Shown: piece by piece, positions 41,396 to 55,665 of the stretch
How positions within the stretch are numbered: the stretch's first letter is position 1
Layout of the letters: the number at the start of each line of letters is the position of its first letter
Assembly: GCF_016758115.1 (NCBI RefSeq)
Contig: NZ_WIVG01000002.1
Location: 1-64,000, forward strand
Direction of reading: 5' to 3'
DNA: 64,000 nt
Origin: Lactococcus garvieae
GTDB lineage: Bacteria > Bacillota > Bacilli > Lactobacillales > Streptococcaceae
Program-made: the position numbers and the translations under genes
Notes under the pieces: model-generated
The model's database searches: none
What the model was told of the DNA's origin: nothing
The model's input: the letters and a program-made list of their open reading frames with translations, nothing else

Positions 41396-42265
41396 ATGAA
41401 AGGGATTATTTTAGCAGGCGGTTCGGGGACGCGCTTGTATCCGTTGACGCGTGCAGCAAGTAAACAGCTGATGCCCGTCTATGACAAACCAATGATTTAT
41501 TATCCATTATCTACATTGATGTTGGCTGGAATCAAAGATATTTTGATTATCTCCACACCAGAAGATACACCACGTTTCCAAGAACTCTTGCAAGATGGTT
41601 CTGAATTTGGTCTTAATTTGCAGTATGCTGTTCAACCAAGTCCAGATGGTTTGGCTCAAGCATTTATCATTGGTGAGGACTTTATTGGAGATGACGCCGT
41701 TGCCCTTATCTTGGGAGATAATATTTATCACGGACCAGGCATGTCTAAGCTGCTTCAAGCAGCTGCAGCAAAAGAAAAGGGAGCAACGGTGTTTGGCTAT
41801 CAAGTGCCTGATCCAGAGCGTTTCGGTGTTGTGGAGTTTGACAAAGACATGAATGCTGTTTCTATTGAGGAAAAGCCAGAAGTACCAAAATCTGACTACG
41901 CTGTAACAGGGCTCTACTTCTATGACAATGACGTTGTAGAGATTGCTAAAAGTATCAAACCATCACCACGTGGCGAATTAGAAATCACAGATGTGAATAA
42001 AGCTTATCTCGAACGAGGCGACCTCTCTGTAGAACTTATGGGACGTGGTTTTGCGTGGCTTGATACAGGTACGCACGAAAGTCTGCTCGAAGCAGCACAA
42101 TATATTGAAACAGTTCAACGTATGCAAAATGTTATGGTTGCCAACCTTGAAGAAATTGCATGGCGTATGGGCTACATTTCAGGAGAAGCTGTGCGTGAAC
42201 TTGCACAACCTCTAAAGAAAAATGCATATGGTAAGTATTTGCTAAAATTGGTAGGTGATAAATAA
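41396..42265 (+). CDS. rmlA: Glucose-1-phosphate thymidylyltransferase
   Basis: RmlA (289 residues) makes dTDP-glucose from glucose-1-phosphate and dTTP, the first step to dTDP-rhamnose. The start [18 protein letters not shown] is the nucleotide-binding signature, and [25 protein letters not shown] and [15 protein letters not shown] are typical. It opens the rmlA-rmlC-rmlB-rmlD cluster and has its own extended -10 promoter. Confidence 0.97.
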
Positions 42266-42266
42266 A

Positions 42267-42863
42267 ATGGCAGAGAACTTTTTCGGAAAAGAACTTGCAG
42301 CACGTAAAATCGATGCAATCCCCGGCATGTTAGAATTTGACATCCCTGTGCATGGCGATAATCGCGGCTGGTTTAAAGAAAATTTTCAAAAAGAAAAAAT
42401 GTTGCCTCTAGGTTTCCCGGAAAAATTTTTCGCAGAAGGAAAATTACAAAATAATGTTTCGTTCTCACGCAAAAATGTCCTACGTGGCTTGCACGCAGAA
42501 CCTTGGGACAAGTATATATCTGTAGCAGATGGTGGACGTGTTCTGGGCTCATGGGTAGATCTCCGTGAGGGTGAAAGCTTCGGTCATGTCTATCAAACGG
42601 TGATTGATGCTAGCAAGGGAATCTTTGTTCCACGTGGTGTTGCCAATGGTTTCCAAGTTTTAAGTGATACAGTTTCTTACTCTTATCTGGTGAATGACTA
42701 CTGGGCTTTGGAACTTAAGCCAAAATATGCGTTTGTAAACTATGCGGATTCATCTCTAGGTATCGAGTGGGAAGATCTTGAGAATGCTGAAGTCAGTGAA
42801 GCGGATAAACATCATCCTATGCTGGCTGATGTCAAACCTTTGACAGCAGATTTGCTCGGCTAA
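42267..42863 (+). CDS. rmlC: dTDP-4-dehydrorhamnose 3,5-epimerase
   Basis: This cupin-fold epimerase (198 residues) carries out step three of dTDP-rhamnose synthesis. It has the streptococcal form: RGLHAEPWDKYISVADGGRV in place of the more common RGLHYQ...PHAQ pattern, then GIFVPRGVANGFQVLSD and the SYLVNDYW segment. The catalytic His of RGLH is kept. The frame is open from a GTG at 42255 in rmlA, but the ATG at 42267, one base after the rmlA stop, gives the family start. Confidence 0.95.
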   Translation: MAENFFGKELAARKIDAIPGMLEFDIPVHGDNRGWFKENFQKEKMLPLGFPEKFFAEGKLQNNVSFSRKNVLRGLHAEPWDKYISVADGGRVLGSWVDLREGESFGHVYQTVIDASKGIFVPRGVANGFQVLSDTVSYSYLVNDYWALELKPKYAFVNYADSSLGIEWEDLENAEVSEADKHHPMLADVKPLTADLLG

Positions 42864-44064
<1,201 letters not shown>

Positions 44065-44079
44065 GATAAAGGAATAGAT

Positions 44080-44979
44080 ATGATTTTAATTACTGGTGGA
44101 AATGGTCAACTTGGCACAGAGTTGCGCCATCTTCTGGATGAACGTGATGTAAAATATTTTGCGGCAGATGTCAACGAGCTTGACATTACAGATAAAGCTG
44201 CAGTTGATGCTTTCTTTGATGAAAACAAGCCAGAATTGGTTTACCACTGCGCCGCATACACTGCCGTAGATAAAGCCGAAGATGAGAGCAAGGCACTCAA
44301 TGAAAAAATCAATGTTGACGGCACACGTCATGTGGCTGAGGCAGCCGCTCGTGTTGGAGCGACACTTGTTTATGTTTCGACAGACTATGTCTTCAATGGC
44401 GATTTACCAGTTGGTCAAGAATGGGAAGTTGATGATCCAACTGATCCTCAATCGGAATATGGTCGTACCAAACGTTTAGGCGAACTTGCGGTGGAAGAAT
44501 CTGGAGTGAAATTCTATACGATACGTACGGCTTGGGTCTTTGGCAACTATGGTCATAATTTTGTTTTCACGATGCAGAACTTAGCGAAAACACATGATAC
44601 TTTGACAGTAGTAAACGATCAACATGGTCGGCCTACATGGACACGTACTTTGGCAGAGTTTATGGTTTACTTGGTTGACAATGATGTAAACTTGGGTTAT
44701 TATCACTTGACGAATGATGCCGCAGCAGGTGAGGATGTCACTTGGTTTGATTTTGCATCAGAAATTTTGAAGGATACAGATACAAAGGTAATACCTGTTG
44801 ATTCAAGTGCTTTCCCAGCAAAAGCCAAACGTCCTTTTAACTCGACGATGAGCTTAGCGAAAACAAAAGCTACAGGCTTCGAAATTCCAACATGGCAAGA
44901 AGCTTTAGCTCAGATGCTTGCGAAAGGCGATTTGCGTCCAGATAAAGCAGGTGTAAAAGGCGATATTAATAAGAAATAA
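44080..44979 (+). CDS. rmlD: dTDP-4-dehydrorhamnose reductase
   Basis: This is the last step to dTDP-L-rhamnose, NAD(P)H-dependent, 299 residues. It has ITGGNGQLGTELRHLL at the start, CAAYTAVDKAEDE, VSTDYVFNGD, EYGRTKRLGE with catalytic Tyr and Lys, and VNDQHGRPTWTRTLAEF. Together with rmlA, rmlC and rmlB upstream it supplies the rhamnan made by the rgp genes that follow. Confidence 0.97.
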   Translation: MILITGGNGQLGTELRHLLDERDVKYFAADVNELDITDKAAVDAFFDENKPELVYHCAAYTAVDKAEDESKALNEKINVDGTRHVAEAAARVGATLVYVSTDYVFNGDLPVGQEWEVDDPTDPQSEYGRTKRLGELAVEESGVKFYTIRTAWVFGNYGHNFVFTMQNLAKTHDTLTVVNDQHGRPTWTRTLAEFMVYLVDNDVNLGYYHLTNDAAAGEDVTWFDFASEILKDTDTKVIPVDSSAFPAKAKRPFNSTMSLAKTKATGFEIPTWQEALAQMLAKGDLRPDKAGVKGDINKK

Positions 44980-45033: not shown

Positions 45034-46179
45034 ATGATAAAACACATTTTTATCATAGGGAGTCGTGGACTTCCTGCGAAATATGGCGGTTTTGAAACTT
45101 TTGTGGAAGAACTCGTCAAACATCAAAAAAATGAAAACATTAAATATCATGTAGCTTGTCAAAGCGAGAATTCGGATTTGACTGGTCTTTCTGATGGACA
45201 TTTTGATTATTTAGGCGCAGATTGCTTCGTGATTGATGTGCCTAATATAGGTTCTGCTCGTGTTATTGCATATGATATTTTGGCTATAAGAAAATCTCTT
45301 GAGATCATTAAACAAGAGGGGATAGAAAAACCTATTTTTTACATTTTAGGCAACACTATTGGCGGAGTTATTGGAACTTATGCAAAAAAAATACATGGCA
45401 TAGGTGGTAAGCTTTTTGTTAATCCTGATGGCCTTGAATGGCGCCGGACAAAATGGCCTGCGCCCGTGCGTAAATATCTTAAATTTGCTGAGAGAAAAAT
45501 GGTCCGTCATGCGGATCTGATTATTAGTGATAATCAAGGGATTCTTGATTATTTACGTGCAGAATATGGGCAAGTAAATAGTGATGTTATCGCGTATGGA
45601 ACGGAGAAATTCAAATCAGATTTGACAGAATCTAAAACTCTGGTAAAATATGGGGTCAGTGATTATTATTTGATTGTGGGACGCTTTGTGCCTGAAAATA
45701 ATTACGAATTGTTGATTCGCAGTTTTATGGAAAGTAAGACCACGCGAGATTTAGTAATTATTACGAATTATGAAGGCAATCCTTACTATGAAGAACTTCG
45801 GGCTCAAACAGGGTTTGATAAAGATCCAAGAATTAAATTTGTTGGTACTGTTTATGACCAAAATGAATTGCGCTATATTCGTGAGCAGGCTTTTGCTTAC
45901 TTACATGGTCACGAAGTTGGTGGAACTAATCCAGGACTTTTGGAAGCCATGTGGTCAACACCAGTAAATATCGTTCTTGGGGTGAATTTTAACCGAACAA
46001 CTGCAGAGGATGCTGTCATCTATTTTGACAAGGAAAATTTGCGAACTGTTTTGTCAGAGGTTGAGCTGATGTCCTCTGATACGCGTCATCGTTTAAAATA
46101 CAAAGCAAGAGCCATTATTGAAGAAAAGTACACTTGGGATTATATTTGTGCCCAGTATGAAACTTTATTTATAAAATAA
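45034..46179 (+). CDS. rgpA: Rhamnosyltransferase RgpA-like (DUF1972 + GT4)
   Basis: This 381-residue glycosyltransferase starts with the DUF1972 domain (IGSRGLPAKYGGFETFVEELV) and continues as a GT4 transferase (VNPDGLEWRR, VGRFVPENNYELLI, HGHEVGGTNPGLLEAM). RgpA/Cps2T-type enzymes add the first rhamnose to the lipid-linked primer. It lies at the start of the rgpA-rgpB-rgpC-rgpD block, right after rmlD. Confidence 0.93.
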   Translation: MIKHIFIIGSRGLPAKYGGFETFVEELVKHQKNENIKYHVACQSENSDLTGLSDGHFDYLGADCFVIDVPNIGSARVIAYDILAIRKSLEIIKQEGIEKPIFYILGNTIGGVIGTYAKKIHGIGGKLFVNPDGLEWRRTKWPAPVRKYLKFAERKMVRHADLIISDNQGILDYLRAEYGQVNSDVIAYGTEKFKSDLTESKTLVKYGVSDYYLIVGRFVPENNYELLIRSFMESKTTRDLVIITNYEGNPYYEELRAQTGFDKDPRIKFVGTVYDQNELRYIREQAFAYLHGHEVGGTNPGLLEAMWSTPVNIVLGVNFNRTTAEDAVIYFDKENLRTVLSEVELMSSDTRHRLKYKARAIIEEKYTWDYICAQYETLFIK

Positions 46180-46202: not shown

Positions 46203-47144
46203 ATGCCCAAAGTTAATATTTTAATGTCAACTTACAACGGTGAAAAGTTTGTTGCAGAGCAAATCGAAAGCATTCAAAAACAAACCTTTCAAGACTGGAC
46301 GCTCATCATCCGTGACGATGGGTCAAGAGACACTACCGTTCAAATTATTGATCGTATTGCCAGTGAAGATAGCCGTATCCAAGTACTCAAAGCTCAAAAT
46401 GTCGGTGTCATTCAATCCTTCTATGAATTGGTAAAAGCTGATACTGCAGATTTTTATTTTTTTGCTGATCAGGATGATTACTGGCTGCCTAACAAATTAG
46501 AAATTATTTTGCGAGAAGCAGAAAATCATGACAACAGTATACCGACCATGTATTACACCGACCTAAAAGTCGTCGACAAAGATTTGACGGTCTTATCAGA
46601 AAGCATGATTCGTAGTCAATCTGATCATGCGAATACACAATTGGTCCAGGAACTTACTGAGAACACGGTTACAGGTGGAGCCAGTATGATTAACCATGCT
46701 CTAGCAGAAGAGTGGAAAACTACCGATGATGTCATCATGCACGATTGGTATTTGGCGCTTCTTGCAACGGCTATTGGTAAACTGGTTTATATTGATCAAC
46801 CAACTCATCTTTATCGTCAACATGATGCGAATGTTCTGGGTGCAAGGACATGGACGAAACGCATGAAAAAGTGGTTGCATCCTAATCTTTGGTTTGAAAA
46901 ATATTGGTGGCTTATCGAATCAAGTCAAAAACAGGCACAGAAACTCTTAAAAGAGCAATTAGCCCATATGTCAGTACACAATAGAGAGCTCATCCAAGCT
47001 TACGTTAAATTATTGGACATGCCAAAAGAAAAGCGACGTCAAACGCTTTATCAATATGACATACGGAAAAACAAGGGATATCACACTAAAATTTTCCGTA
47101 CACTCATCCTCACAAAATTTGCATACAAAGGAAAAAACAAATGA
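46203..47144 (+). CDS. rgpB: Rhamnosyltransferase RgpB-like (GT2)
   Basis: This is a 313-residue GT-A fold transferase: NILMSTYNGEKFVAEQIESI at the N-terminus, RDDGSRD, FADQDDYWLP (DXD-like), TGGASMINHAL and MHDWYLALLA. RgpB homologues add rhamnose in the rhamnan repeat. Its stop overlaps the rgpC start (ATGA). Confidence 0.93.
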   Translation: MPKVNILMSTYNGEKFVAEQIESIQKQTFQDWTLIIRDDGSRDTTVQIIDRIASEDSRIQVLKAQNVGVIQSFYELVKADTADFYFFADQDDYWLPNKLEIILREAENHDNSIPTMYYTDLKVVDKDLTVLSESMIRSQSDHANTQLVQELTENTVTGGASMINHALAEEWKTTDDVIMHDWYLALLATAIGKLVYIDQPTHLYRQHDANVLGARTWTKRMKKWLHPNLWFEKYWWLIESSQKQAQKLLKEQLAHMSVHNRELIQAYVKLLDMPKEKRRQTLYQYDIRKNKGYHTKIFRTLILTKFAYKGKNK

Positions 47145-47950
47145 ATTTCTTCAGCCGTAGAAATCAAATTCTACTCAAAGAACTGATTAAAACCGACTTT
47201 AAACTGCGCTATCAAGGAAGTGCTATTGGTTACTTATGGTCTATACTCAAACCTGTCATGCTCTTTTTGATTATGTATTTAGTCTTCGTGCGTTTTATGC
47301 GTTTTGGGGAAGGGACCCCTCATTTTGCAGTAGCACTGCTTTTGGGGATTACAATCTGGAGTTTCTTTGGTGAAACAACGGGAGTGGGAATGCTTTCTAT
47401 CGTTAGTCGTGGTGACATGCTCAGGAAAGTAAACTTTTCAAAATCTGTTATCGTTTTTTCAGTAGTAATAAATGCTTTCATTAATTTAATGATTTCACTT
47501 GCTGTGGTTACCATATTTGCTTTGATTAATGGTGTACAGATGTCGTGGACAGTCATTTTTGTTGTACCTCTTTTATTTCAGCTTGTACTCTTTACCACAG
47601 GGATTTCCTTTATGCTTTCGACATTCTTTGTCTATTTTAGAGATTTAGGACCCATCTGGGAAGTCATCATGCAAGCTGGTTTTTATGGTACACCAATTAT
47701 TTATCCTATTACACAGATTTCAACGAATCATCTGGATGTGGCAAAGATTCAAATGCTCAACCCAATGGCACAAATTATTCAAGACATGCGCTATGTCTTG
47801 ACCTTTAGTAACAATACGAATCCTACCTTGTGGCAACTATGGGATAATCCCCTAGTAATTGCCATTCCCTATGTTCTTTCTGTACTTATCTTTGGCTTAG
47901 GATTATGGGTATTTAATAAAAACGCCAATAAATTTGCAGAAATAGTTTAA
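47141..47950 (+). CDS. rgpC: Rhamnan ABC exporter permease RgpC
   Basis: This 269-residue membrane protein of the ABC-2 type polysaccharide export family has six segments: LIKTDFKLRYQGSAIGYLWSILKPVMLFLIMY is the conserved start, and GTPIIYPI the conserved later segment. It forms with RgpD the transporter that moves the lipid-linked rhamnan across the membrane. It overlaps rgpB by four bases. Confidence 0.93.
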   Translation: MNFFSRRNQILLKELIKTDFKLRYQGSAIGYLWSILKPVMLFLIMYLVFVRFMRFGEGTPHFAVALLLGITIWSFFGETTGVGMLSIVSRGDMLRKVNFSKSVIVFSVVINAFINLMISLAVVTIFALINGVQMSWTVIFVVPLLFQLVLFTTGISFMLSTFFVYFRDLGPIWEVIMQAGFYGTPIIYPITQISTNHLDVAKIQMLNPMAQIIQDMRYVLTFSNNTNPTLWQLWDNPLVIAIPYVLSVLIFGLGLWVFNKNANKFAEIV

Positions 47951-47960
47951 GGAGGAAAAA

Positions 47961-49121
47961 ATGTCAGAAGTAGCAGTAAAAATAGATCATGTAAGTAAAT
48001 ACTTCCGCCTCCCAACAGAAGCAAGTACGAGTCTCCGTACCACCTTGGTGAACCGTATGCGGGGCATTAAGGGTTACAAAGAACAGCACGTGCTTAAAGA
48101 CATCGACTTTACCGTCGAAAAAGGCGACTTTTTTGGCATTGTTGGTCGTAATGGTTCGGGAAAATCGACGCTTTTAAAAATCATTTCCCAAATCTACACC
48201 CCAGAGAAAGGGAGTGTAACTGTTAATGGAAAACTGGTCAGTTTTATAGAGCTGGGTGTTGGTTTTAATCCTGAACTTACGGGTAAAGAAAATGTTTATC
48301 TGAACGGTGCAATGCTTGGCTTTTCAACGGAAGAAATCGACCATATGTACGATGATATTGTTGAATTTTCAGAACTTCATGAGTTCATGAATCAAAAGCT
48401 AAAGAACTATTCGAGTGGGATGCAGGTACGTTTGGCTTTTTCAGTTGCTATAAAAGCTAAAGGTGATGTCCTGGTTCTTGATGAAGTCCTTGCTGTTGGT
48501 GACGAGGCTTTTCAACGCAAATGTAACGACTATTTCTTGGAGCGTAAAGCCTCAGGAAAGACAACAATTTTAGTGACACATGATATGAATGCTGTTCAGA
48601 AATATTGTAACAAAGCCATTTATATTAAAGAAGGTGTTGTTGAAAAAGGAAATATCCAAGACATTACCAATAAATATTCTGAAGATAATCTCGCAAGAAA
48701 TAACTTGAAGGGTGGCGATGTAGAAGAAGCGGCCGCAAAAATTACAATTGAACCCACCTCAGCCCTCTCTCTTTCAAAACCGGATGAGTTTTTTACAGCA
48801 AATTTAAATGTTGACCTTTACGATAAAACCCTTGATAGGTCGGACCTATTTATTTCCTATAGTCTTCATGATGTGACACGGGGCGGCATTGTTTATGACA
48901 GTGGTTCGTTACCCATTCATACTGTAAATACTATTGAAATCCCAATGAGGAACTTCCACAATACAGAGTTTGGTTTAGTGGCAACGATACGGATGAAGCA
49001 ACGCGTAGCAGAGGATGGCTTTATTGAAACTGAACTTCTCACTGCTTCACCAATGCTCAGTTTTGTTTACAGAGATTCTTCAGACAAGCGAACTTACGGA
49101 CTTTTAAAAGAAATCAAATGA
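47961..49121 (+). CDS. rgpD: Rhamnan ABC exporter ATPase RgpD
   Basis: This ATPase has 386 residues. Walker A GRNGSGKST, the YSSGMQVRLAFS signature, Walker B DVLVLDEVLAVGD and the H-loop VTHD are present in the first 240 residues. The last 140 residues form a C-terminal beta-sandwich domain (about 255-386) of the Wzt/TagH type that may recognise the glycan end. AAGGAGG precedes the ATG. Overlaps the next gene by four bases. Confidence 0.94.
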   Translation: MSEVAVKIDHVSKYFRLPTEASTSLRTTLVNRMRGIKGYKEQHVLKDIDFTVEKGDFFGIVGRNGSGKSTLLKIISQIYTPEKGSVTVNGKLVSFIELGVGFNPELTGKENVYLNGAMLGFSTEEIDHMYDDIVEFSELHEFMNQKLKNYSSGMQVRLAFSVAIKAKGDVLVLDEVLAVGDEAFQRKCNDYFLERKASGKTTILVTHDMNAVQKYCNKAIYIKEGVVEKGNIQDITNKYSEDNLARNNLKGGDVEEAAAKITIEPTSALSLSKPDEFFTANLNVDLYDKTLDRSDLFISYSLHDVTRGGIVYDSGSLPIHTVNTIEIPMRNFHNTEFGLVATIRMKQRVAEDGFIETELLTASPMLSFVYRDSSDKRTYGLLKEIK

Positions 49122-50008
49122 TACCAAAAAAGAAAATCAAACTTTATTCATGGAAAGCTCCAGGCGGGAAACCAAATTTTGGTGACGAACTTGGTCCTGA
49201 AATTATCCAAAATTTATTCTCCTACATTGAAATCGTCTACGAATCAGATATTAAGAAGGCTGATATGATTTCTGTGGGCAGTCTGCTACACATTTTGCTT
49301 GATTTAGAGCACAACCGCCCAACAAAAAAAATGCACATTTGGGGAAGTGGTACAATCTATCCGCTTCAAGCAAGAGTAGGCTCCATCAAGGAAACCTATC
49401 CTTTGCATGAGTTTTCATCGCTAAATTTTTCAAAGTTAAAATTTCATGCAGTACGCGGTAAGTTGACACAACAGGACTTGAAGCTTTCACCACTTCCTCT
49501 AGGCGATCCGGGAATTCTTGTAAATAAAGTGTATGAAGAAAGCCAGGTCAAGGAAGATAAAATAGGTATCATCCCTCACTTCGAGGAAGCTGATCAACCA
49601 CTCATTAAAAAGTTAGCAGCTGACTCAAGATTTAAAATTATTGATGTTTTGCGGGCACCGCAAGCCGTCATTACCGATATTACATCGTGTAAGCTTATTT
49701 TTTCCTCGTCTCTTCACGGTTTGATCGTGGCGGATAGTTTTGGTATTCCCAACCTCCACATGAATCTATCAGATCGACTTGTCGGAGGAGACTTTAAGTT
49801 TGAAGATTACTACTCGGGAATAGGAAAGCAGCATCGATTAGCAGATCTAAACAGGATTCTAAGTCAAGAGTATCACACGCAGCTTATTGAAGAATATCAA
49901 CTTATTACTGACCTTAAAGGGAAACAAGAAGCTTTATTAAAAGCTTTTCCATACAGAAGAACAAACTATATCTACTCATTGCTCGCCAAGCTGAAAAAAA
50001 GGTTATAA
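49118..50008 (+). CDS. Polysaccharide pyruvyl transferase-like protein
   Basis: This 296-residue protein shows the pyruvyl-transferase family pattern: KPNFGDELGPEIIQNLF near the start, IWGSGTIYPL, HAVRGKLTQQDL, LGDPGILV, and SSLHGLIVADSFGIP near the end. It would add a pyruvate ketal to a sugar of the wall polysaccharide, giving negative charge. It overlaps rgpD by four bases, so it is part of the same transcript. A non-catalytic or different transferase role cannot be excluded. Confidence 0.8.
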   Translation: MIPKKKIKLYSWKAPGGKPNFGDELGPEIIQNLFSYIEIVYESDIKKADMISVGSLLHILLDLEHNRPTKKMHIWGSGTIYPLQARVGSIKETYPLHEFSSLNFSKLKFHAVRGKLTQQDLKLSPLPLGDPGILVNKVYEESQVKEDKIGIIPHFEEADQPLIKKLAADSRFKIIDVLRAPQAVITDITSCKLIFSSSLHGLIVADSFGIPNLHMNLSDRLVGGDFKFEDYYSGIGKQHRLADLNRILSQEYHTQLIEEYQLITDLKGKQEALLKAFPYRRTNYIYSLLAKLKKRL

Positions 50009-50017
50009 GGAGAAAAA

Positions 50018-51352
50018 ATGAACATAGCTAAAAATAAAAAATTAAAACTCCCAGCAGAAAAATTCTTTATCATAGTTGTGCTCATTTTTGGTGTATTGGC
50101 TACCTTTCTTACTCCGCCGCTGTCAACAGGAGATGAAGGCTATCATCTTAGTTATGCCTATAGTCAGTTTTCATCTACTCATCCCGAAGTGATGTCTAAG
50201 CCAAGCCTCCGTGTGATGGAGAATGAGGCTATTGGAGGGGTTACAGGAAGTACAGCAGATATCAGCATCAAGGATACCATTTTCAAAAAAGTTGACTTGG
50301 GGAATGACGGTATTCGTTTTAATTTAACGAGTAATGGGAATAGCTTTGTTCCTATCAATCTTATGCACCTTCCAGCTTCGGTAGGTGTACTCATTGCGCG
50401 ATTGATTTATCCGAGTATCGGAGTGATGGATTATGGGGGCAGATTGGCTAATCTTCTCTTTTTCGCCCTCTGTTTTTATTTTATCATCAAAAAAAGTAAG
50501 CAAGGGAAATGGCTTATGGTCATGCTTTTCACGGTTCCTTACCTTATGAAAATTGCCAGCCCAAGCTATGATATCTTTAGCTTTATCGTCTTTGCGATGT
50601 TTGCGCTCAATTTCTTAGAATTGACTCAAATCAAGAGCTTCAAAGAATTAAGCAGAAAACAGCGTCTTTATACCTTAGCCACAATTTTGCTCCTCTTTTT
50701 CGCAAAGAAGAATTATGTTTTCTCACTTTTTGCTCTAGTCGGTCTCCCCATGCTTTGCAGACCTATAGTTGCATACCTCAAAAAGATGAAGAGCGCAACA
50801 AAATGGGTTTCGTCCTTTATAGTTACTCTCTTGATTGTTGGGACTCTTGTCGTTTTTAATGAAAAATTTGGCTTAGTTCATTTTACAAAAGTCTTTTTTA
50901 ATAACTATCTCAACTTTGCAACAATGGGAACCAATGCGCGCAGAATGTGGATGATTACCCCAATGAATCTTCCAGACTTTTTCAACATTATCTGGATTCT
51001 TTTATTCTGTTGGGTAGCCATGGGAGAGTTTAGACAGGTTTATTCCAAATGGACGACTTGGGTTTCTGGTATGACTTATTTCATCAACTGGGTAGGGATA
51101 TTTGCAGGAATCTATATTGGACAGAGGACGCTTTCGGCATTTGATGAACTCTCTGGTCGTTATCTGCAGCCCTTTATCATTTTTTTCCTCCCAGCCCTAC
51201 AGAATTTGGGAGCAAAATATAACATCAAACTTTCAGAAAAAACAGTTGCCAGCATTTCCAAAGTTTCTACGATTACGATAATGATTCTCTACCTCCTTAT
51301 CGTCTTCTACCGAGGCTTTATTCTCAGAGTAAAACCAACAGGAGTTGTCTAA
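50018..51352 (+). CDS. DUF2142 family polytopic membrane protein
   Basis: This 444-residue protein has about ten membrane segments. After the first segment comes the outer loop LSTGDEGYHLSYAYSQFS, similar to GT-C enzymes in which an acidic loop residue is catalytic. The family is common in polysaccharide loci, and members are proposed to add sugars from lipid carriers outside the membrane. AAGGAG precedes the ATG. Position between the pyruvyl transferase and the RgpF fusion supports a role in modifying the rhamnan. Confidence 0.8.
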   Translation: MNIAKNKKLKLPAEKFFIIVVLIFGVLATFLTPPLSTGDEGYHLSYAYSQFSSTHPEVMSKPSLRVMENEAIGGVTGSTADISIKDTIFKKVDLGNDGIRFNLTSNGNSFVPINLMHLPASVGVLIARLIYPSIGVMDYGGRLANLLFFALCFYFIIKKSKQGKWLMVMLFTVPYLMKIASPSYDIFSFIVFAMFALNFLELTQIKSFKELSRKQRLYTLATILLLFFAKKNYVFSLFALVGLPMLCRPIVAYLKKMKSATKWVSSFIVTLLIVGTLVVFNEKFGLVHFTKVFFNNYLNFATMGTNARRMWMITPMNLPDFFNIIWILLFCWVAMGEFRQVYSKWTTWVSGMTYFINWVGIFAGIYIGQRTLSAFDELSGRYLQPFIIFFLPALQNLGAKYNIKLSEKTVASISKVSTITIMILYLLIVFYRGFILRVKPTGVV

Positions 51353-51367
51353 AGAAAGAGTATACCT

Positions 51368-54304
51368 ATGAATGATAAGATTTCAGTTGTAGTCACTTGC
51401 TATAATCATGAAAAATATATTGAACAGTGCATAAGAAGTATCTTTGAGCAAACGCATCAAAATATTGAACTTATTATTTTTAATGACGGTTCAACAGATC
51501 ATTCTGGAGAAATTATTTCTTCACTGCTTCCAGAATCCCCCTTTCCAGAAACGCGCTATTTTTCAGATGAAAATCAAGGTGTTGTAAAAATCAGAAATGC
51601 TGCTCTGGAAAAAATTACTGGTGATTATCTTCTCTTTGTTGACAGTGATAACTTTTTAAACAAAGACCATATCGAAATCTTGCTCAGAGAGGCAAAAAAA
51701 CATGGTGATGTAGACATCGCCTACTGCCAACTCTGGGATTTTGAAAAAAAGAGAAATATTTTGCATGAAAACCTAGACTTTTCTCTCAATGATGAATTGG
51801 TGCAAAATGTTATTGACATGTCTTCCTTAGTAAAAACTCAGGCGATTGGAAATGCGAGATTTGATGAGAATTTGCGAAGTTTAGAAGATTATGATTTTTG
51901 GCTCAACCTCTTTCTCAACAACGGTACAAGTGCTTATTTTGTGAGAGAAACTAAGTTAAACTATCGCGTACTGGAAGCTTCACGGAGCCAAAGGGATGAT
52001 TTGGATAGGTATTTTGATGATTATCTTTATATTTTAAATAAATATAAAGATGTCCTTGGAGACAGGTACGCACAGGCAATCAAGCAAAACCTCATAGTTA
52101 GTGCGAGCAACTATAGAGAGATGGCAGAGGTTGCGGATGAACGTCTTGTATTAATAAGACGCTTGGAGCAAGAACTCCAACGTAAAGAATGGGAGATAGA
52201 GAGCAAAGAGGTACATATACAAAACATCACCCAGTCAAAAAGTTACAGACTGGGAAGTGCTATCGTGAAAAATATTAAGCGTGTCTCTCATGTTTTACGT
52301 CATCCAAACTTGTGGCTAAAAATGCCCAAGAGGATTTTTAAAGCCCTAGGGTTAAAATTCCACCCAGTTCTCAAAATCAAAAAAGAAATACTAAGTCTTT
52401 TACGCAATAAATCACGCAAAAACAACAACTATCACAATCCTAAGCGTGTCCTTGTTTACGTCATTTATTCAAACGGTAAAAAGCTTCAGGAGTACAAGCT
52501 GATTTTTCTTGAGGCTCTGGCTAGACTGTCGCATAAAATCGTCATTGTTGTCAATGGTTCTCTCGTCCTAGAAGACCAAAAGCTCTTGGAGGGCTTTGGA
52601 GAAGTAATTCTCCGGCCAAATGAGGGATATGACACAGCAGCATTTAGACAGGGCATTTTGGAGCTAGAAAAAACCGTTCTTTCACAATACGATGAACTGC
52701 TGCTCGTTAATGACACAAATGTTGGGCCCTTTATGGACTTGGAAATAACCTTTAGGGAAATGGCTGAGCGTAAATTGGACTTCTGGGGTATCTCCTATGG
52801 CGAACCCCAAGAAGATTTTACGGGTTATAACAAATATAAAACCATTCCAGTTCATCTCCAATCGTATTTCCTCGTTATTGAAAAAAGTATGTTCACTTAT
52901 CCAGGTTTCATAAAATACTGGAAAAATATGGACGATACAAATTCGAGAAATAAAGCGATTGGTAAACATGAAACTGTGTTTACAAAACATTTTGAAGATT
53001 TAGGGTTTAAGCATGGTGCAGTAAGTAACAACAATGGTGATAGTGCGATGTATATGCATCCACTTGTCATGCTGAAAGATTTCAAAGTTCCTTTAGTAAA
53101 ATACACAGCATTTTCAAATTACGATAACGACAAGTTTGCCTGGCAAGGCATAACAAGAGAAACAGAAGTTCCTGCCTTAATTGATTATATAAAGTCAAGT
53201 ACTTCCTATCCCCCAGAAGTTATTGATGGGATAATGGAGGATATCAAGAATACAAAACCCAAAGAGCATATCCTGATTATTGATGGTGTTGAAAATGCTA
53301 TTCCACAGTGTACACGCTATCGTGTTGAAAATAAAGCTGCACAGCTAAAATCGCTTGGCTTTGACGTGTGGGTAGTAAATGCTTCAAGCTTTAAGATGGG
53401 TTATGCAGAAAATGCAAGCCATATCATTATCTATCGTACGGGTTACTCAGAAGAACTAGAAAAGTTATGTCAGCTTGCTAAAAAGTATAATAAGCCTGTT
53501 TATTATGATATTGATGACCTTGTTATTGATACAAAATACACCGACTTGCTGACTTATACGCAAGAACTCTCTGATTTAGAGAAACACGCGTATGACAGTG
53601 GCGTTCACTCTTATGGGAGGATGATGGCGCTGTGTGATAGCGTGATAACAACGACTCGTGATCTTAAAGAGGAGCTGAAAAACTACAGTTCAAATGTATT
53701 ATTAAATAGAAACCTTGCCAGCGAAGAACTGGTGAGCCTCAGTCAAAAAGCACTCAAAGATTATTCAAAAGAAGACGCAAAAGTTAAAATAGGATACTTC
53801 TCCGGTTCAATCACACACAATGAAAATTTTGAAATGATTAAACCAGCGATTGTTCAAATTTTAGAAAAATATCCCAATGTAGAACTTCACTTGGTCGGTT
53901 ATATCGATCTCCCACAGGACTTGCAAAAATTTTCAAGACAAATCAAAATGAATGATTATGTAGATTGGAAAGAGCTGCCGAAACTTATTAGTCAAGTGGA
54001 TATTAATTTGGCTCCTCTAGTGGATAATGTGTTCAATCGGGCAAAATCAGAAATCAAGTGGCTGGAAGCTGCTCTTGTAAAGATTCCAACCCTAGCAAGT
54101 AATTTAGGATCTTTTGAAGAAATGATTGAAGACGGAAGAACGGGTCTCTTGGCTCAACCAAATGAATGGTATGAAAAACTAGCAGCACTTATCGAAAGTC
54201 CAGAAAAAAGAAAAGCAATTGCCGAAAATGCCTATGATTTTGTTTTAGAACATTGCACAGCTAAAGATCATACAGATGAATTTACCAAGAGTATAAGCGA
54301 ATAA
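51368..54304 (+). CDS. Three-domain fusion: GT2, RgpF rhamnan synthesis, GT1/4-like
   Basis: This is an unusually large glycosyltransferase (978 residues). Domain 1 (about 1-240) is GT-A/GT2 (VVVTCYNHEKYIEQCIRSI, FNDGSTDHS, LFVDSDN). A coiled linker (about 255-300) follows. Domain 2 (about 365-620) is the RgpF rhamnan-synthesis type (VLVYVIYSNGKKLQEYK, NEGYDTAAFRQGI, LLLVNDTNVGP). Domain 3 (about 630-978) is GT-B-like (IIDGVENAIPQCTRYRVENKA, YYDIDDLVIDT, VKIGYFSGSITHNENF, EIKWLEAALVKIPTLAS). It probably replaces separate RgpE/RgpF proteins and extends or branches the rhamnan. Confidence 0.88.
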   Translation: MNDKISVVVTCYNHEKYIEQCIRSIFEQTHQNIELIIFNDGSTDHSGEIISSLLPESPFPETRYFSDENQGVVKIRNAALEKITGDYLLFVDSDNFLNKDHIEILLREAKKHGDVDIAYCQLWDFEKKRNILHENLDFSLNDELVQNVIDMSSLVKTQAIGNARFDENLRSLEDYDFWLNLFLNNGTSAYFVRETKLNYRVLEASRSQRDDLDRYFDDYLYILNKYKDVLGDRYAQAIKQNLIVSASNYREMAEVADERLVLIRRLEQELQRKEWEIESKEVHIQNITQSKSYRLGSAIVKNIKRVSHVLRHPNLWLKMPKRIFKALGLKFHPVLKIKKEILSLLRNKSRKNNNYHNPKRVLVYVIYSNGKKLQEYKLIFLEALARLSHKIVIVVNGSLVLEDQKLLEGFGEVILRPNEGYDTAAFRQGILELEKTVLSQYDELLLVNDTNVGPFMDLEITFREMAERKLDFWGISYGEPQEDFTGYNKYKTIPVHLQSYFLVIEKSMFTYPGFIKYWKNMDDTNSRNKAIGKHETVFTKHFEDLGFKHGAVSNNNGDSAMYMHPLVMLKDFKVPLVKYTAFSNYDNDKFAWQGITRETEVPALIDYIKSSTSYPPEVIDGIMEDIKNTKPKEHILIIDGVENAIPQCTRYRVENKAAQLKSLGFDVWVVNASSFKMGYAENASHIIIYRTGYSEELEKLCQLAKKYNKPVYYDIDDLVIDTKYTDLLTYTQELSDLEKHAYDSGVHSYGRMMALCDSVITTTRDLKEELKNYSSNVLLNRNLASEELVSLSQKALKDYSKEDAKVKIGYFSGSITHNENFEMIKPAIVQILEKYPNVELHLVGYIDLPQDLQKFSRQIKMNDYVDWKELPKLISQVDINLAPLVDNVFNRAKSEIKWLEAALVKIPTLASNLGSFEEMIEDGRTGLLAQPNEWYEKLAALIESPEKRKAIAENAYDFVLEHCTAKDHTDEFTKSISE

Positions 54305-54420: not shown

Positions 54421-55665
54421 ATGAAAAATATTTTATTCGTTTCTCCAACAGGTACCTTTGATAATGGAGCAGAAATCTCAATTTTTTATCTGATGACTGC
54501 GTTAGTTAAACGTGGGAACAAAGTGATAAATGTTGCACCAGGTTATCAAGGGGAGGATAAAACAAGTTACCAAAACAAATTTAAGGCTTCGGGTATCGAT
54601 ACCTATATTCTTCCAGCAGGAAAATGGTGGTGGGAAGATGCACCAGGAGGGCTTCCAGAAGATGCTAAGGTTCGTGCCTTTTATTATCGCGAAAACATTG
54701 CGCAAATCAGACAACTGATTCAGGAAAACAGCATAGATTTAGTGGTTACTAATACGGTGAATATGTTTCAAGGCGCGCTTGCTGCTGCGTGTGAGTCAAT
54801 TCCTCATTTTTGGTTAATCCACGAGTTTCCAGAAAATGAGTTTGCTTATTATCTTGATAAGATAGATTTTATAGCAGAATATTCGAAAGAAATCTACAGT
54901 GTGACAGGGCTTCTGAATCAAAAACTGAATCTTCTCTTTGGAGAAAAAGACATTAAGCAGTTCATTCCTTATAGCGAAGTGGATGCCTCGCCATTAAAAA
55001 AAGGAGAAAAAATTCGCTTCGTGTCAGTAGGGCGTTTGACCGAACGTAAAAATCAATTGGAACTTTTAAAAGCTTATCACCAGTCTGGAAAAACGTATGT
55101 TGATCTTGTTTTAATCGGTGCCGGAGATGAAGACTACAAAATCAAGTGCTTAAATTATATTAAGAAATATAATTTGAAAAATGTGAAGTTGACCGGTCAT
55201 CTGGATAATCCCTGGGAAGAACTCACGGATAAGGATATCTTTGTCAGCAGCTCGGCCATGGAGACCTTTGGTTTGGTCTATATTGAAGCCCTACTCAAAG
55301 GTCTTCCAGTCATCATATCGGACAACCCGGGTTACGCGTCTGCATACAAGATTTTTCAAGAAGGAGAGATGTATCCTTTAGGAGATATTGAAGCCTTATC
55401 TGAAAAAATGAGCTTGAGCCTAGAAACTTTTACAGAGCAAAAGCAAAACAGCATCAATAAAATTTCGGAAGTACGAGAGAAATATTCTATAGAGTTTGTT
55501 TATAAAACGTTTATTGAAGAAGCTGAAAAAGTCCAAGGCAGTGAGAAGAAAGCCGTGCGACATATAGAAAATCTACTCACAGTGAATGCAGACAGTTCAA
55601 GTTCGTTTAAGTCTGAAATAAAGAGAACGGTTAAAAGAGTGCTCTTGAAATTTAAGAAACGATAA
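54421..55665 (+). CDS. Glycosyltransferase family 4
   Basis: This is a GT-B fold transferase of 414 residues: N-terminal acceptor half starting NILFVSPTGTFDNGAEISIFYL, and C-terminal nucleotide-sugar half with FVSVGRLTERKNQLELLKAY, GAGDEDYKIKC and SAMETFGLVYIEALLKGLPVIIS (EX7E-type). GAGGAAAG precedes the ATG. A 116-base gap separates it from the fusion gene. Donor and acceptor cannot be read from sequence. Confidence 0.88.
   Translation: MKNILFVSPTGTFDNGAEISIFYLMTALVKRGNKVINVAPGYQGEDKTSYQNKFKASGIDTYILPAGKWWWEDAPGGLPEDAKVRAFYYRENIAQIRQLIQENSIDLVVTNTVNMFQGALAAACESIPHFWLIHEFPENEFAYYLDKIDFIAEYSKEIYSVTGLLNQKLNLLFGEKDIKQFIPYSEVDASPLKKGEKIRFVSVGRLTERKNQLELLKAYHQSGKTYVDLVLIGAGDEDYKIKCLNYIKKYNLKNVKLTGHLDNPWEELTDKDIFVSSSAMETFGLVYIEALLKGLPVIISDNPGYASAYKIFQEGEMYPLGDIEALSEKMSLSLETFTEQKQNSINKISEVREKYSIEFVYKTFIEEAEKVQGSEKKAVRHIENLLTVNADSSSSFKSEIKRTVKRVLLKFKKR

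Follow-up and report, generated by a model that had tools for sequence, protein, structure and literature searches.

Wall rhamnans serve as phage receptors and as surface antigens. Their backbone type varies between strains of one species, and the causes of this variation have not been assigned to single genes. In the models given for Lactococcus lactis (PMC5596347) and Streptococcus mutans (PMC4931226), the rhamnan is built by RgpA, RgpB and RgpF. The stretch of Lactococcus garvieae DNA analysed here (64,000 nucleotides, hereafter the window) contains a rhamnan locus with one unusually composed protein of 978 residues, in which a first-pass annotation had recognised a GT2 domain, an RgpF domain and a third, GT-B-like domain. 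The question is what this protein consists of, and what it does to the polymer.

The gene is real. According to the ORF listing of the window it is an uninterrupted ATG reading frame of 978 codons, starting 15 bases past the stop of the preceding gene, with a purine-rich GAAAGAG ahead of the ATG. Two other Lactococcus species have a protein of equal length and module order (92% and 76% identity), so the frame is not an assembly artefact. A promoter scan gave no excess over shuffled sequences (46 vs 44.8), and an NCBIfam search with the protein returned no family above cut-off.

The surroundings, with rmlACBD and rgpA-D (Table 1), bear out the earlier assignment to a rhamnan locus; the four rml genes are presumed to be such from resemblance and gene order. 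The genome encodes two PF00953 proteins, which would be enough for a TagO-like starter beside MraY. Further glycosyltransferase genes follow downstream of the GT4 gene at 54421. Lactococcus ileimucosae, L. petauri and L. hircilactis contigs are among the genus-mates of the window's genome. The pyruvyl-transferase-like gene is matched solely in L. ileimucosae and L. petauri among 35 annotated loci, and suggests a pyruvate decoration of the window's wall polymer.

Table 1. Genes of the rhamnan locus and modules of the 978-residue protein, with positions in the window.
Feature	Position	Strand	Basis
rmlA, rmlC, rmlB, rmlD (presumed): dTDP-L-rhamnose synthesis	41396..44979	+	ORFs; order conserved in relatives
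rgpA: beta-1,4-rhamnosyltransferase	45034..46179	+	NCBIfam NF046071, above cut-off
rgpB: GT2	46203..47144	+	
rgpC and rgpD: polysaccharide ABC exporter permease and ATPase	47141..49121	+	
Polysaccharide pyruvyl-transferase-like gene, between rgpD and DUF2142	49118..50008		PF04230, E 1.1e-13
DUF2142 membrane protein	50018..51352	+	
GT2 - RgpF(N-half) - GT4 protein, 978 aa	51368..54304	+	ORF, Pfam, orthologues
Module 1: GT2, GT-A fold, residues ~3-260	51374..52147	+	Pfam, model
Linker, predicted long helices, residues 261-355	52148..52432	+	Model, low to middling confidence
Module 2: N-terminal half of RgpF, residues 356-632	52433..53263	+	Pfam, hhalign
Module 3: complete GT-B, GT4 type, residues ~633-978	53264..54301	+	Pfam, model
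GT4 gene	54421..55665	+	Homologue in rgpE slot of canonical Streptococcus locus L093, 42%

Pfam finds three modules in the chain: GT2 (PF00535, E 2.4e-30, residues 6-129), RgpF (PF05045, E 1.8e-50, residues 391-634) and a GT4-type region (PF13692, E 2.4e-15, and PF00534, E 1.1e-14, residues 798-957). Thus the earlier description of three glycosyltransferase modules in one chain stands, with the exception that RgpF is present as its N-terminal half only. The match covers profile positions 1-246 (or 1-248) of 503; for the RgpF of other lactococci positions 1-502 are covered. The protein is GT2 plus half an RgpF plus GT4, and not RgpE plus RgpF plus an extra glycosyltransferase.

Profile comparison agrees with this. 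Module 2 is related to the N-terminal half of canonical RgpF (hhalign probability 99.9, E 1.8e-37). Module 3 shows no relation to the C-terminal half (probability 0.7), and was rejected as its counterpart in sequence. It also shows no kinship by BLASTP with the neighbouring GT4 gene at 54421 (E 0.78). An internal duplication within RgpF was rejected too, as its two halves do not match each other in sequence (probability 0.2-0.3).

The structural models separate the two proteins further. Canonical RgpF (pLDDT 79.6, 9 sequences) is modelled as two tandem GT-A-like halves: residues 1-227 match, for example, WrtF (Z 12.4, rmsd 3.1, 170 aligned) and residues 268-527 match, for example, BcsA (Z 13.6, rmsd 3.2, 184 aligned). 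For the window protein the model (pLDDT 82.0, 27 sequences) has a pTM of 0.53, which is why it is read module by module and not for packing. Module 1 (residues 3-260) matches AvpGT (Z 24.1, rmsd 3.0, 241 aligned), while the fold of module 2 is assigned from the model of the canonical N-terminal half. Module 3 (about 631-978) is predicted to be a whole GT-B fold with GT4 relatives, with matches to sucrose-phosphate synthase (6kih, Z 27.5, rmsd 3.4, 319 aligned) and MshA (Z 27.4), in line with the GT-B-like third domain of the annotation. Since canonical RgpF models as two GT-A halves and module 3 as GT-B, a GT-A half of RgpF is, according to the models, replaced by a GT-B enzyme in the window protein.

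Next, we studied the putative catalytic sites in an alignment (A3) of 27 rows from three genera, picked as matches to both the RgpF N-terminal half and the GT4 module. In module 1, D40-G-S, D92-x-D94 and D174 are invariant in all 22 three-module rows. In module 2 N418-x-G420-Y-D422, N448-D449-T450 and H534-E535-T536, and in module 3 K893, S894, E895 and E900, are invariant in 27 of 27. The EX7E motif of GT4, placed in module 3 by alignments to 5i45 and MshA, is incomplete: the second glutamate is E900, and the first is A892 in every row.

This substitution brings up the idea that the protein contains a catalytically dead module, most likely the GT4, with a scaffold role. The pyrophosphate-binding Arg/Lys pair expected from PMC3898925 is, further, not evident by eye in the segment FSGSxTHNEN. 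However, the pocket positions are strictly conserved across the 27 sequences and three genera, and WsaF is described as an active retaining beta-1,2-rhamnosyltransferase of GT4 that lacks the first EX7E glutamate (PMC2943079, PMC3898925). A dead module is therefore very improbable, and the caveat that domain 3 might be inactive finds no support in its invariant pocket residues and its full GT-B fold, as far as alignment and model can tell.

As GT4 enzymes are retaining (PMC3898925), module 3 is not expected to form alpha-L-rhamnose from dTDP-beta-L-rhamnose. By analogy with other GT4 enzymes its product should be beta-rhamnose or an alpha-hexose, unless the subfamily differs.

How common is this arrangement, and does it occur together with ordinary RgpF? 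In the window's genome the 978-residue protein is the sole PF05045 protein. RgpF in some form is present in 17 of the 18 Lactococcus genomes, with one copy each (split over two contigs in G015). As no other PF05045 protein is available, the window protein must supply any RgpF function. Eleven of the 18 have a full-length RgpF (including G015), six have the half-RgpF with GT4, and one incomplete genome has none. The statement that rgpE and rgpF are usually separate genes of an rgp locus holds for half of these genomes: a GT2 gene adjoins the full RgpF in nine genomes, while two have RgpF without that GT2, and among the six, three have the three-module protein and three have RgpF(N)-GT4 without GT2.

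The window is not alone in this architecture, which recurs in other Lactococcus, in many Streptococcus and in some members of Enterococcus. Relatives turned up at 58 loci when named genomes were scanned, the strong ones being from Lactococcus, Enterococcus, Streptococcus and Streptococcaceae metagenome-assembled genomes. Most annotated loci also have, next to the RgpF(N)-GT4 pair (which we call the core) or near it, a DUF2142 gene and a gene homologous to the GT4 at 54421.

Across 335 Streptococcaceae genomes, related ones included without correction for descent, 137 contain a strong full-length RgpF (a match above 430 bits), 50 contain the core (GT4 part called at E 1e-60 or better) and a single genome contains both. 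PF05045 matches, listed down to about 346 bits, occur in at least 192 genomes, and 6 of those 192 fall in neither group. The core and a strong full-length RgpF thus show near-complete mutual exclusion across the family. The genome holding both is G701, whose RgpF reaches 433 bits. Fisher tests run in the surveys take no account of kinship, so their p values do not count as evidence in isolation.

A sample of 395 genomes from the whole order gives a similar picture. PF05045 is present in 46 of them (again uncorrected for descent): 29 have a single full-length RgpF, 17 have a long frame with half an RgpF, and none has both. One of the 29, G197, reaches only 350 bits. The 17 consist of nine with the long frame alone and eight Streptococcaceae in which a short or diverged RgpF accompanies it.

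In core-bearing streptococci the second RgpF has decayed in an asymmetric way, which is the main new observation of this study: the N-terminal half is retained and the C-terminal half is lost. In six of these eight Streptococcaceae it is an N-terminal half of 264-289 residues (likewise in L042 and L044). Among the longer second RgpFs of core-bearing streptococci, 13 of the 14 examined have a C-terminal half with neither NxGRD nor HTK; the one in G701 keeps HTK. In canonical RgpFs both motifs are present (11 of 11 examined). Such decay would be expected if the core made the function of the C-terminal half redundant or unwanted.

Individual cases illustrate the pattern. At L041:19810-21477, L045:19755-21425 and L043:19757-21400 the N-terminal half is intact, NxGRD and HTK are lost from the C-terminal half, and the core is present. 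An exception is L160, from G197, where RgpF carries neither C-terminal motif although the genome has no core.

We propose that the core probably replaces the function of the C-terminal half of RgpF as a cytoplasmic rhamnan elongator, and in this way sets a different backbone. TagO and RgpA would start the lipid-linked rhamnan, the window protein would elongate it, and RgpC and RgpD would export it. The stable core would then pair a single GT-A module of RgpF type with a GT4 module, and would take over the job of the second, C-terminal GT-A half, with a backbone of other linkage or composition as the result. The N-terminal GT2 may be accessory, a relative of the stand-alone GT2 beside rgpF that adds a residue as a cap, as a branch or within the chain. 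We infer activity for each module, rhamnan as the substrate, dTDP-rhamnose as a donor and an effect on the structure of the backbone.

Several findings support the replacement: the resemblance of module 2 to the N-terminal half of RgpF and the lack of one between module 3 and the C-terminal half, the mutual exclusion, the decay of the C-terminal half, and the location among rml and rgpA-D genes. Further, a relative of module 3 occurs outside the order in a locus that has rmlABC and an ABC exporter and is without RgpF. Two genomes speak against it, G701 with core and 433-bit RgpF together, and G197 with neither core nor C-terminal motifs, and so does the retaining chemistry expected of the GT4 module. 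The relative outside the order is found in a Bacilli genome (L108:448-2703, also L109), where it is 40% identical to module 3 and joined to a second GT4.

Gene position bears on whether the protein acts on the backbone at all. In streptococci the core gene lies upstream of rgpA-D and rgpF, behind genes for other glycosyltransferases, and is accompanied by an RgpF relative, as might be expected if the protein built or attached a variable side chain. In Lactococcus and Enterococcus, however, the core gene comes directly after rgpC/D or within two genes of it, with no other RgpF in the locus, and RgpF is the backbone enzyme in the L. lactis model (PMC5596347). We find a side-chain role rather improbable, and retain elongation of the backbone as the preferred reading.

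The published polymers of Streptococcus thermophilus offer a link to backbone chemistry. In the Rgp1, -6 and -7 loci a "large, multidomain glycosyltransferase" is described together with a DUF2142 protein and a further glycosyltransferase, the last of which is 45% identical to rgpE of Rgp2 (PMC9746298). The same set of large glycosyltransferase, DUF2142 protein and rgpE-like glycosyltransferase occurs in Streptococcus vestibularis (L043) and other streptococcal loci; the large S. thermophilus enzyme is known from that one phrase and was matched through the gene order in S. vestibularis, not by sequence. The reported backbone of strain UCCSt50 (Rgp1) is -2-aRha-6-aGlc-2-aRha- (PMC8752142), compared with -2-aRha-3-aRha- for Rgp2 and Rgp3 and -3-aRha-2-aRha-2-aRha- for Rgp4 (PMC9746298). 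Judged by the Rgp1 locus and backbone against the Rgp2, Rgp3 and Rgp4 backbones reported in these sources, the trio travels with a backbone without 1,3-linked rhamnose. This is a correlation within one species, in which the DUF2142 gene, the GT4 gene and a divergent rgpF differ as well. For L. garvieae and L. petauri the literature search brought up no structure of the wall polymer.

The alpha-glucose in the UCCSt50 backbone (PMC8752142) raises a different possibility: the RgpF-type module alone does the rhamnan step, and the GT4 module adds alpha-glucose from UDP-glucose, within the chain or as a branch, giving a glucorhamnan. A retaining GT4 would suit the formation of alpha-glucose from UDP-alpha-glucose (PMC3898925). 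On the other hand, the first EX7E glutamate, a donor-hexose contact in other GT4 structures, is alanine in all 27 rows, and WsaF, with proline at that position, is reported to use dTDP-rhamnose (PMC2943079). The co-occurring GT4 gene at 54421 could add the glucose instead, and the relative of module 3 outside the order sits in an rml locus without RgpF. A glucosyltransferase role is for these reasons unlikely, though a more serious contender than the side chain, and replacement of the RgpF C-terminal half remains our preferred explanation.

What, then, does the N-terminal module contribute? The pair of RgpF(N) and GT4 is found in one chain in all 27 rows of A3, which were chosen as matches to both. 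It is the stable unit, and the N-terminal glycosyltransferase is exchangeable: it can be a GT2, another GT4, a separate gene or absent. Among the 50 core frames of Streptococcaceae 33 have 980-1195 codons; the other 17 (679-725) are too short for a third module. The module type was read in the core frames that were fetched, and it is GT2 in 22 of the 27 rows. G701 and G687 have in its place a GT4 resembling the gene at 54421. No N-terminal module is present in L. hircilactis, Lactococcus reticulitermitis, G001, G011, Enterococcus sp. HY326 and G154, while in Enterococcus italicus (L056, the split form) the GT2 is a separate neighbouring gene.

The swap of GT2 for GT4 at the N-terminus can be seen at L159:17004-19988 (994 aa) and L162:2454-6014 (1186 aa). 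In G712 (L161:1-2849) a full-length RgpF lies in an open frame of about 949-999 residues, directly downstream of a GT2 gene.

In other lactococci a stand-alone GT2 gene lies upstream of rgpF, and module 1 shares 49-55% identity with it. In the tree the fusion GT2s and the stand-alone rgpF-side GT2s are grouped apart from RgpB (100/100), and the GT2s of the three Lactococcus fusions stand beside the Lactococcus stand-alone GT2s, apart from other fusions. The test rejects a topology in which the 19 fusion GT2s are kept separate from all others (p-AU 6.7e-5), but the split form of E. italicus, L056, lies among them. When L056 is added, neither a single clade (p-AU 0.23) nor the Lactococcus grouping (p-AU 0.68) is rejected, and an independent origin of the Lactococcus fusion is not claimed. 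The suggestion that the fusion fixes the order of sugar addition is still possible, but for the GT2 it is weakened, because this module is absent, swapped or separate in relatives.

The family is thus widespread and uncharacterised, rather than a one-off fusion. A literature search, restricted to open-licence papers and hence weak, found none naming the GT2-RgpF(N)-GT4 combination and no enzyme of the RgpF(N)-GT4 type with measured activity. The family is of interest for the replacement of one RgpF half and for its correlation with the type of backbone, rather than for being a fusion. The replacement may explain differences in wall polymers between strains. If the core does replace the C-terminal half, an intact RgpF versus an RgpF-GT4 core in the sequence would predict the backbone class, and the linkage made by each half of RgpF becomes directly testable.

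More tentatively, and short of an even chance in our view, RgpF(N)-GT4 could be an alternative rhamnan polymerase, the second such class in Lactobacillales, whose acquisition led to decay or loss of the RgpF C-terminal half and to a change in backbone chemistry. Exchange at the N-terminus (GT2, other GT4 or none) would then tune the repeat, and module make-up would predict the structure of the wall polymer.

Finally, the protein can be compared with known systems. With RgpF it shares the N-terminal half, as module 2, and a locus with rmlACBD and rgpA-D. It lacks the C-terminal half, however, and has a GT-B module of GT4 type there instead, and module 2 falls in a clade separate from canonical RgpF N-terminal halves (100/100). 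The slot between rgpD and rgpF (L091:3435-4469, L092:6058-7491, L093:3558-5216) is filled by a GT2 in some streptococci and by a GT4 in another; the name rgpE may therefore stand for enzymes that are unrelated.

In enterococci EpaN of the Enterococcus faecalis type occupies the same slot after the exporter ATPase and is of similar size. The L122 protein in that slot (1055 aa), however, consists of a methyltransferase and a GT2, without the RgpF and GT4 modules. In the E. quebecensis genus PF05045 and GT4 occur in 4 of 22 genomes, and both are absent in 18. Judged by the proteins in this slot of E. faecalis-type loci, the window protein is therefore not EpaN of the E. faecalis type. Similar frames to L122:8876-12043 are present in L123 and L124, in genomes without the core; two unrelated large enzymes use one slot.

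EF2181 has been linked to WsaE (PMC7188991). WsaE of Geobacillus stearothermophilus sets a precedent: as described in PMC2943079, this rhamnan enzyme carries several active modules in a single chain. By this description, a methyltransferase with two rhamnosyltransferase domains, it is set apart from the window protein. The chondroitin polymerase K4CP and heparosan synthase make other polymers than rhamnan, and have no RgpF or GT4 module. They do, as a likeness, build a polymer with two glycosyltransferase modules in one chain; canonical RgpF has K4CP as its best Foldseek match, and the two enzymes are among the matches of the window protein.
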